This document shows positions 14,131 through 17,094 of a stretch of 64,000 nucleotides of DNA, in pieces (within the stretch, counting starts at the first letter, position 1; each line of letters starts with the position of its first letter). Source of the stretch: Cladochytrium replicatum (lineage: Eukaryota > Chytridiomycota > Chytridiomycetes > Cladochytriales > Cladochytriaceae); NCBI GenBank assembly GCA_025526935.1, contig JAHLKD010000119.1, forward strand, positions 62,001-126,000. Direction: 5' to 3'. The notes below the pieces were generated by a model that made no database searches, was not told the origin of the DNA, and saw only the letters and a program-made list of their open reading frames with translations. Made by a program: the position numbers and the translations under genes.

Positions 14131-17094
14131 ATGCAGCGAATGCTTTTCAACCCTTGCTTCGGAAACGCCCTCGAAACCGAGTCCGTCATGCCGTCTCCGC
14201 TCCCGTGCATCCACTGGATCACACGCGACCATCCTGGCAAGCTCAACACTCTCGCCATCCCCGTCGGCTCCAGCTCCGACGACATCCGCAATGCTCTTCT
14301 TGCGCAGCTGAAAATTCATCCCGCGGATCTGACCAAGTTTGTCTCGATCGAGCGGGCGGACGGCACCGTGCTCCCGATCTCGGCCGCGCTGCCTGTGAAC
14401 GCGGGTCTGGAGCCGTATGTAGTGCGCGTGACGACCTCGAGCGTACAGACGCCAGTTGTGGAGAAGGTTCAGGAAGCGAGTGCTAAGCGCGAGGACTTGG
14501 AGGATGTCCATGCAGAGCTCGAAGCGCTGAAATGGTGTGTAAAAAGGTGCTTGTTGTTTTTTTTCCGTGGTTAACGGCGGTTTTGCGATTCAGGCAAATG
14601 CGCTTGATTAAGAAACAGTATGCGGTAAGATAAACAGGTGAAGTTGAGTACATCTCTGGTGCTAAACGAGGACTTCTATCGATAAGCTCGGAAACGCGGT
14701 CCCTGCTGTCGGAGGCGGTCTCCCGACACTTCCGAATATTCAGCCTTCTGGAACCGGAAAGTCCATGACGGACGAAGAAGCCCAGGAGATCATCCAGGAT
14801 TTGTGCGTCAATGCAAATAAACCCCTTGAAAAACCACGGTCTGGTTGACTGACTCTCCGTAATGCAGGGAAATGCTCGCGCTGGAGTTGGGCTTCACCCG
14901 CGACATTGAGATCGACACGATTGTGTTCCGTCGGTTCCTTTATGGCATCAAGGACTCGTTCGACAAGTCACCTGGAGCAGTGAGCTTCCGCCAGGCGCAT
15001 TATACCGTACGCATGCTGTTCCATGTGCTCGGTGCAAACTCTGCACCGTGGAAATGGAGGTCTTTGGACAAGCTCGTGTGCATGGTAAATTAATGGCATT
15101 CTGATGGATGAAATTCCTACGCTAATTACTGGATATTCACCAGCTGAGCGCTCTCGTCCATGGATTGAAGAGTCCGGAGAAGCCTGCTGCCCCGGATCAG
15201 CAAGGCACGTCGAAAGCGACTTCCGCCGCTCAGGAGCAGTTCAGTACGTTCTCGGAAAAGCTCATTTCTCAACAGAAAATTTCTCATTCTGACTGATGCT
15301 CCAGACATCATCATGTCGCTCTTGAACAAACCCGAGACCAACTTTCTGATCAAAACCGACGCGATCGATTTCAAAGTGTTCAAAGACGCGCTCAAGAACT
15401 CACTCGCGATGAACGCAGCACCGAGGAGTTTCCTCCCCCAGATCCCACCGCCGAGGAAGACGGCTGGGGCGTCGGGCGGGGAGAAGAAGGAGTCGGTGAT
15501 TCCGACTTTTGCGGCGATGGATCGGTTTAATGCCTCCGCGACGACTGGGAAGCTTAAGAGGCGCGGGTCGTTGGATCTTGGGGGTAGTAAGAAAGGGACA
15601 GCGTTCGGGGATCTGATTAAACCTCAGGGGAGTGGATCGGTGTCAAGCGCGAACAATTTGCCCGCTTCTGGCGCGGGTGTAGCGGATAAGCCTGCTGCAG
15701 CTCAGGTAAACCCAGTCGCAGCAGCTGGGTCTGTTGTCGAGCCGGTTCCAGCTCCCATGCCTGCACCGCGAGAGGACAAGGTGCTGAAGGAACGGCAGCT
15801 GATGCGAGTGTGAGTAAGGGTGGGGATTTAATATGTTGACACTTGGCTGAAACTTTGTTTTCTATAGGTACGAACAGGAGGGTGTCGATAAGGAGCTCGC
15901 TATTCTCATTCGCAATGACATGGTGAGTCTCGTAAGGTTTATGATGTTTTATGTTTGGGTTCATTGACTAGATTTTATGGTAGCTTGAGTTGAAGCCGAA
16001 TGTTCGTTGGGCTGATATTGCTGGACAGGAAGAAGCCAAGACTTTGCTTGCGGAAGCACTGGTTCTTCCAGCTCTGATGCCGGAGTTCTTCAAGGGTAAG
16101 CGTTATCTCACTTGTTCAAGCATGTTGATACCTAAGTTGGGAGTTTAGGCATTCGCCGACCTTGGCGTGGTATCTTGATGACTGGGCCGCCCGGAACGGG
16201 GAAAACAATGCTTGCCAAAGCGGTTGCGACGGTAAAACCACCCCACGAACGAAGTTCCCAACTTCAAAACGATTGAGATGTTTCATTCTATAGGAATGCA
16301 ACACCACGTTCTTCAACGTGAGTGCGAGTACCTTAGCATCGAAATGGCGGGGTGAATCAGAGAAGCTGGTCCGGACGCTCTTCACCATGGCGCGCATACA
16401 CGCTCCATCGACCATCTTTATCGACGAGATCGATTCGGTGTCGTCGTCTCGCGGCGGTTCCAACGAGCACGAGACGAGTCGCCGAGTAAAGTCCGAGCTT
16501 CTGATCCAGATGGATGGGATATCGAGCATGACGACGAAAACGATCGACGGGAAAGAACCAGTGGTGATGGTGCTTGCGGCTACGAACCTGCCGTGGTTGC
16601 TGGACGAGGCTATGCGACGAAGGCTGGAGAAGCGAATTTTTATCGGGCTTCCGGACCAGTTTGCAAGGGAGCAATTGCTTCGTATATGTCTGAAGGATGT
16701 TCCGCATAATGAAGTTGACTTGGAAGAAGTTGCGAAGCAGATCGATGGGTTCAGCGGAGCGGACGTTGCGTCGGTGAGTATTGGTTGATGAGCTTAAAAT
16801 GGGGATTACTGATCTAGCTTGTTCAGCTTTGTCGTGATGCGGCGATGATGAAGCTCAGAGAGAAAGTGAGAAACGTAAAGAGTTCCGAACTTCACACGAT
16901 CAGTGTTGGTGAGTCGCGACATCTAAGTCGACCTTTTCTTTTCTCTTAGATTTTCGCAATTTTTTTCAGATGATCTCAATGCACCGATTGGGATGGATGA
17001 CTTTGCTGCTGCCATGAAGAAAGTGCGGTCGTCTCTGTCTGGTGCAGATATTGAGCGGTACCACCAGTGGCTCGCAGATTATGGGAGCGCTTAG
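14131..17094 (+). CDS. Katanin p60-like AAA ATPase fused to a degenerate PDE9-like region
   Basis: Twelve exons: 14131-14534, 14594-14624, 14687-14802, 14868-15084, 15144-15243, 15305-15809, 15868-15922, 15984-16095, 16149-16231, 16294-16773, 16827-16908, 16970-17094. All junctions keep frame; 769 residues. The C-terminal third is katanin p60: [12 protein letters not shown], Walker A GPPGTGKT (about 524-531), SKWRGESEK, Walker B FIDEID (about 583-588), and the p60 ending [16 protein letters not shown]. Katanin severs microtubules (family knowledge). The N-terminal part (about 26-330) is unusual. A ubiquitin-like fold and helix resemble the N terminus of PDE9A, followed by a partial PDE-like domain ([39 protein letters not shown]). 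The histidines expected at HNxxH and the Asp at HD are absent, so it should not hydrolyse cyclic nucleotides. Exon 15305-15809 alone carries the end of the PDE-like part and the linker into katanin. An ATG at 14188 is an alternative start. Confidence 0.8.

Follow-up and report, generated by a model that had tools for sequence, protein, structure and literature searches.

The gene at 14131-17094 (+) of the window, the 64,000-nucleotide stretch of Cladochytrium replicatum DNA analyzed here, is predicted to encode a katanin whose front end is of a new type. We moderately favor the reading that it is one gene for a chimeric katanin, which would be retargeted by a PDE9-derived protein-binding module in the place of the MIT domain, as LisH is in KATNAL2. 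According to the accessible part of PMC8369831, what precedes the ATPase directs katanins, be it MIT with p80 or LisH. A dead enzyme fragment would be an unusual origin for a katanin targeting module.

The splice model of this gene has 12 exons and encodes 769 amino acids without an internal stop (Table 1); each of its 11 introns is 53-65 bp long, with GT-AG borders throughout. Candidate splice sites were chosen by eye, which left 96 stop-free combinations, and the combination selected was the one with the more usual splice sites and with conserved residues retained. Codon usage was trained on 3157 codons from seven other gene stretches of the same genome. By this measure, the model frame outscored both other forward frames in 11 of the 12 exons; the exception, exon 5, was a near tie (4.1 for the model frame vs 4.6). 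For exons 9 and 11, both short, a slightly higher score than that of the model frame came from the reverse strand. From N to C terminus, the predicted protein comprises a ubiquitin-like (Ubl) domain, a short coil, the front of a PDE9A-like catalytic domain, a linker of low complexity, and the whole of a katanin p60 ATPase.

Table 1. Predicted features of the fusion gene and the two duplicated neighboring genes (positions in the window)
Feature	Position	Strand	Content and evidence
Neighbor, UVB_sens_prot (RUS1-type) gene	5530-7239		Second copy on contig C5
Exon 1	14131..14534	+	Start codon, the first ATG in an open frame that extends back to 13900; codes for a short leader, the ubiquitin-like domain, and the coil start
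Ubiquitin-like (beta-grasp) N domain, residues 25-102	14203..14436	+	Predicted counterpart of the PDE9A N domain; hhalign, AF2, Foldseek/VIA
Exon 2	14594..14624	+	31 bases, coil; splice model
Exon 3	14687..14802	+	Spacer and start of PDE-like region; splice model
Exon 4	14868..15084	+	PDE9A-like helical part, degenerate HNxxH (A221, Q226); phmmer, hhalign, alignment
Exon 5	15144..15243	+	PDE-like, HD changed to HG (H262, G263), deletion relative to PDE9A; least certain exon; alignment, codon usage
Exon 6	15305..15809	+	505 bases, chimeric; start intron (phase 1) common with the C23 PDE9A gene, end intron (phase 2) common with canonical katanins
Linker, residues 328-457	15418..15809	+	Part from about 15497 onward kept as a decayed relic at C5:158865-159149
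Exon 7	15868..15922	+	Katanin part begins; splice model, alignment
Exon 8	15984..16095	+	Katanin ATPase; splice model, phmmer
Exon 9	16149..16231	+	Walker A GPPGTGKT (residue 526); motif position
Exon 10	16294..16773	+	Pore loop SKWRGESEK (557), Walker B IFIDEID (582), sensor AATN (636), arginine fingers RRR (649); motif positions
Exon 11	16827..16908	+	Lid domain end; splice model, Pfam
Exon 12	16970..17094	+	Vps4_C end and stop codon; splice model, Pfam
Neighbor, PKA-like kinase gene	19920-22019		Second copy on contig C5

The N-terminal half is, judged by its sequence, derived from a PDE9A-type gene, of which the Ubl domain, the short coil, and the first catalytic-domain helices are kept. 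In a phmmer search, PDE9A ranked first among all PDB sequences for this part (E 3.8e-6, residues 176-267). The target for hhalign was an alignment of human PDE9A with three hand-guided PDE9A models from the same genome, and the whole N-terminal part matched it colinearly over 289 columns (97.7%, E 2e-12), while residues 25-145 alone gave 93.6% (E 2e-7). Repeated with other settings, the comparison scored the whole at 97.4%, residues 20-105 at 71.8%, and residues 170-345 at 93.2%. Shuffled sequences reached 2.4% at best for the whole (40 shuffles) and 0.4% and 0.5% for the two parts (best of 30), and the further controls gave 0.3% (reversed sequence) and 0.1% (linker and ATPase). These comparisons bear out the colinearity with PDE9A and the ubiquitin-like domain that the initial annotation had proposed. 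At the level of structure, the AF2 model of the Ubl domain, a single-sequence prediction of low confidence (pLDDT 54), has the secondary structure E-E-H-H-E-E-H-E and matches Ubl/PB1/UBX folds (Foldseek, VIA), and the single-sequence model of exon 4 alone (pLDDT 56) had no match at E < 4 in the fold search.

Identity to the three PDE9A sequences compared is 21-24% in the PDE part (33/154, 36/153, and 34/154) and 18-29% in the Ubl part (21/73, 11/62, and 13/60). Such low values, together with the lack of a Pfam PDEase_I match to the N-terminal part, would be expected if it were unrelated to PDE9A and the resemblance due to chance; this is hardly credible, however, given the first rank of PDE9A in the PDB, the gap between the hhalign score and the best of 40 shuffles, and the finding of two separate segments in the correct order along with one common intron. 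By homology to the fusion module, the N domain of PDE9A itself (L007, L013, L014, and human PDE9A) appears to be a beta-grasp, ubiquitin-like fold; within the accessible text of the openly licensed literature, no paper on this fold was found. A search of viral contigs with the N-terminal query returned five stretches with the pattern, none of which was confirmed.

The PDE module is predicted to be catalytically dead. H252 is the proton donor of PDE9A. In the MAFFT alignment, this residue corresponds to A221 of the fusion module, N253 to S223, H256 to Q226, H292 to H262, and D293 to G263, and there is no counterpart for D402, E406, Y424, Q453, and F456. The portion beyond about PDE9A residue 364 is absent, and because the second half of the PDE domain is missing, so are D402, Y424, Q453, and F456; relative to PDE9A, there is also a deletion between the HG and the NKPETN segment. 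Five active-site positions were checked, of which three are substituted (H252A, H256Q, and D293G), one is retained (H292), and one, D402, falls in the missing half, leaving H292 as the sole survivor among H252 and the metal ligands H256, H292, D293, and D402. Both the loss of the HNxxH histidines and the HD aspartate and the absence of the second half had been read correctly from the sequence at the outset. As described in the accessible parts of PMC7828511 and PMC10587872, His256, His292, Asp293, and Asp402 are the zinc ligands of PDE9A, and Gln453 and Phe456 hold its ligands, the latter two being the main ligand residues according to PMC7828511. Since the pocket and the catalytic residues are lost, as is most of the metal site, normal PDE activity would be excluded and PDE-type binding of cyclic nucleotides by the module is unlikely.

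It had also been suggested that a pseudo-PDE could sense cyclic nucleotide, and such a module, responding to cGMP or cAMP, might gate severing. The idea has some appeal, as PDE9A acts on cGMP and sensors can arise from inactive enzyme domains; nevertheless, we consider it very unlikely and have set it aside, since H252, H256, and D293 are substituted, D402 and Y424 are absent, and the pocket residues Q453 and F456 are gone, as is every metal ligand but one in unchanged form.

The other half of the protein is, on the same kind of evidence, a product of a katanin p60 (KATNA1-type) gene. Among all PDB sequences, its top phmmer match was katanin p60 A1 (KATNA1; 5zql, E 2.9e-117), with KATNAL1 in third place, and the Pfam families AAA, AAA_lid_3, and Vps4_C were all over the cut-off. 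The ATPase is 58% identical to that of human KATNA1 and 60-61% identical to those of the canonical katanins of the same genome, located on contigs C117 and C122; over the ATPase, these two share 98% identity with each other and 68-69% with human KATNA1. Alignment and motif positions showed Walker A, Walker B, sensor 1, the arginine fingers, and the pore loop to be intact, and so, taking the motifs to have their usual names and roles, the ATPase half is predicted to retain every checked motif for ATP hydrolysis and substrate threading. In a six-sequence ATPase tree, the branch of the fusion gene is long (0.74 changes per column), and its placement is compatible with a split either before or after the parting of fungi and animals. 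When prokaryote genomes were searched with the ATPase part, 60 stretches with the pattern were found, and six bacterial loci were confirmed, with 30-39% identity.

Further AAA genes were modeled on contigs C61 and C3 (47% and 46% identity to human KATNA1), which we take to be spastin/fidgetin-like from their pore-loop sequence. Matches to KATNA1_MIT in the genome occur only on C117 and C122, and matches to p80 con80 lie elsewhere, on C76 and C146. At E up to 10, two Pfam families matched residues 1-354 of the fusion protein, and neither MIT nor LisH was among them, in agreement with the initial annotation, in which the usual MIT-type N terminus had been described as replaced.

The introns tell which parent gave which part and where the two were joined. 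In the katanin part they are located at 457/2, 476/0, 513/1, 541/0, 701/0, and 728/1 (residue/phase), and all of them except 476/0 coincide, in both aligned position and phase, with introns that the canonical katanins on C117 and C122 possess; the number of matches expected by chance, roughly calculated by hand for 6 and 9 introns and about 936 positions, is 0.06. None of the five introns of a VPS4 gene on contig C9 is at the same aligned position as an intron of the fusion gene, the nearest approach being one that lies two residues from 728/1, in the same phase, within a poorly aligned stretch. On the other side of the join, intron 289/1 interrupts the codon that corresponds to PDE9A residue 327, between the first and second bases, and the PDE9A gene on contig C23 has an intron at this very point. 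Of the 16 PDE loci examined, this was the only one with such an intron (of the 30 fetched, 14 were additional fragments of places already represented), and we calculated by hand that about 0.02 such coincidences would be expected by chance between the C23 gene and the fusion gene in the PDE-like region. Only one of the five N-terminal introns is common with a PDE9A. The first coil intron, 134/2, was considered as a second shared one and dropped, as it is near, not at, the coil introns of the PDE9A paralogs, which are in phase 0.

From introns 289/1 and 457/2 it follows that exon 6 spans from a PDE9A intron to a katanin intron, with the PDE9A sequence ending at about residue 327, and, as had been pointed out in the initial annotation, this 505-base exon carries the end of the PDE region together with the linker. 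It is open across its 167 complete codons, for which the chance is about 0.0015 (168 random codons of the exon 6 base composition), and the model frame had the best codon usage in four of its five blocks, the fifth scoring slightly higher in a frame with four stops. Altogether, 457 codons are open from the PDE part to the ATPase, with no stop (chance about 5e-8 from base composition). Judged by the sequence, the parents were joined at the DNA level inside the present exon 6, with introns retained from both, and the introns support a single fusion gene of two parents.

The alternative would be two genes, the first a PDE9A fragment in decay and the second a short katanin of its own with its start in exon 6, and one could point to the in-frame ATGs in this exon and to the relic on contig C5, described below, which is recognizable only from about residue 354 onward. 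Two adjacent genes are nevertheless highly improbable, given that exon 6 is open and mostly best in the model frame, that its borders are a PDE9A intron on one side and a katanin intron on the other, and that the PDE part runs without a stop into the ATPase. The original view that the join is not just two neighboring genes is therefore upheld, by the introns from both parents that flank it and by the linker and ATPase-end relic at the duplicate locus.

That locus lies on C5, where the neighbors of the fusion gene are duplicated with order and strands preserved, the protein identities being 84% and 86%. Between the two copies, C5:158865-159149 matches the linker (90% over 98 columns and 76% over 87; at the protein level, 47% over 100 columns), and traces were found of exon 7 (10/13 residues) and exon 12 (10/13 residues, protein E 0.23; 82% over 38 bases, E 1e-4). 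The pieces are in different frames with stops around them, the ATPase core is absent, and no PDE part was detectable at the locus. Since this relic keeps the linker and the ATPase ends, the linker must have been joined to katanin before the two loci diverged; in the absence of a recognizable PDE part, continuity is shown only for linker and ATPase. The 1.3 kb upstream of the relic partly matches five other places on four contigs, so that repeats may have replaced earlier content there. A recent capture of the PDE part is argued against by its low identity to the PDE9A genes of the same genome and by a search of this genome with residues 1-354, in which the only match at E up to 10 was to itself.

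Because the C5 copy has decayed, the fusion gene was not indispensable in duplicate. This ruined copy and the long branch of the ATPase could both mean that the remaining gene is itself on its way out, with little or no expression and no selection. We regard this as unlikely: against it stand an uninterrupted reading frame of 769 codons, GT-AG borders at every intron, and intact ATPase motifs where checked, in a genome whose second copy has lost its ATPase core.

Diverged gene pairs are found at several places in the genome, namely the neighbors in the window vs those in C5:147204-162065, C117/C122, C9/C101, C49/C17, and C61/C3. The protein identities of the four pairs measured are 84%, 86%, 92%, and 98%, as expected of an old genome duplication or a hybrid. 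Of the neighbors, the kinase downstream of the fusion gene (19917-22019) is a catalytic subunit of cAMP-dependent protein kinase, whose top match in the PDB was yeast PKA (1fot), and its N terminus is extended by a very long stretch of low complexity. The fusion gene is flanked, at 13411-13723 and 23381-23920, by fragments of a repeat protein in which a motif of the type VLxWWxxSGLxL recurs; those just upstream of the gene look broken. Elsewhere in the window, the 4-kb block 40001-44000, which includes the end of an acidic Cupin_8 protein (39550-41001), has strong GC skew (0.246) and AT skew (0.170). On the reverse strand, one frame encodes a palm domain of poly(A)-polymerase-like type (31456-32091), and the frame next to it has a long Arg/Ser-rich stretch (30058-31455); the two (30058-32091) are perhaps one gene.

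As to what the chimera may do, the accessible part of PMC8369831 describes the MIT of KATNA1 and KATNAL1 as binding the microtubule lattice and p80; in KATNAL2, which is without Vps4_C, LisH stands in for MIT, and in the Tetrahymena homolog of KATNAL2 it is important for stability, dimerization, and localization. The PDE9-derived front end would replace MIT in a similar way, and the fusion enzyme would consequently no longer dock on p80 con80 through MIT. The module may instead serve as a protein-binding or self-associating address label, which would direct the severing hexamer away from the location or partner of the canonical katanin in this genome and toward another, possibly PDE9A itself. 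On the simplest view, the genome would then have two types of katanin, the fusion protein being the one with a separate address. Dimerization or targeting by the pseudo-PDE module, the other two roles first suggested for it, are plausible candidates. Doubtful, in our opinion, is the more specific scenario that the front end pairs with real PDE9A via the common Ubl domain and coil, recruiting the hexamer to sites of cGMP breakdown, e.g., near the zoospore flagellum; if true, it would amount to a hard-wired link, made by gene fusion, from cGMP signaling compartments to microtubule cutting. The chimera also suggests, in a form that can be tested, what role the PDE9A N-terminal domain might have once it is freed from catalysis.

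In the openly licensed literature, no paper was found on a katanin fused to PDE or PDE9, nor on katanin in Chytridiomycota, which fits the first impression that no protein of this architecture had been described. The accessible part of PMC1550239 tabulates a katanin-like EST of Blastocladiella and gives nothing on architecture.

Compared with KATNA1 and KATNAL1, the fusion protein has the same AAA ATPase and Vps4_C, with pore loop, Walker A/B, and arginine fingers kept, but it lacks MIT, has a PDE9A-derived N terminus, and sits on a long branch. It resembles KATNAL2 in being a katanin ATPase in which MIT was exchanged for another N-terminal module, although this module is derived from PDE9A rather than being LisH, and Vps4_C is present. 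With PDE9A it shares the Ubl N domain, the coil, and the first catalytic part in the same order, as well as the one intron common with the C23 gene, whereas the catalytic residues are lost or absent, the second half is missing, and an ATPase is attached. Closest to its ATPase half are the C117 and C122 katanins, with 60-61% identity and five common introns; those, however, carry MIT and form a 98% identical pair, while the fusion gene exists as one intact copy.
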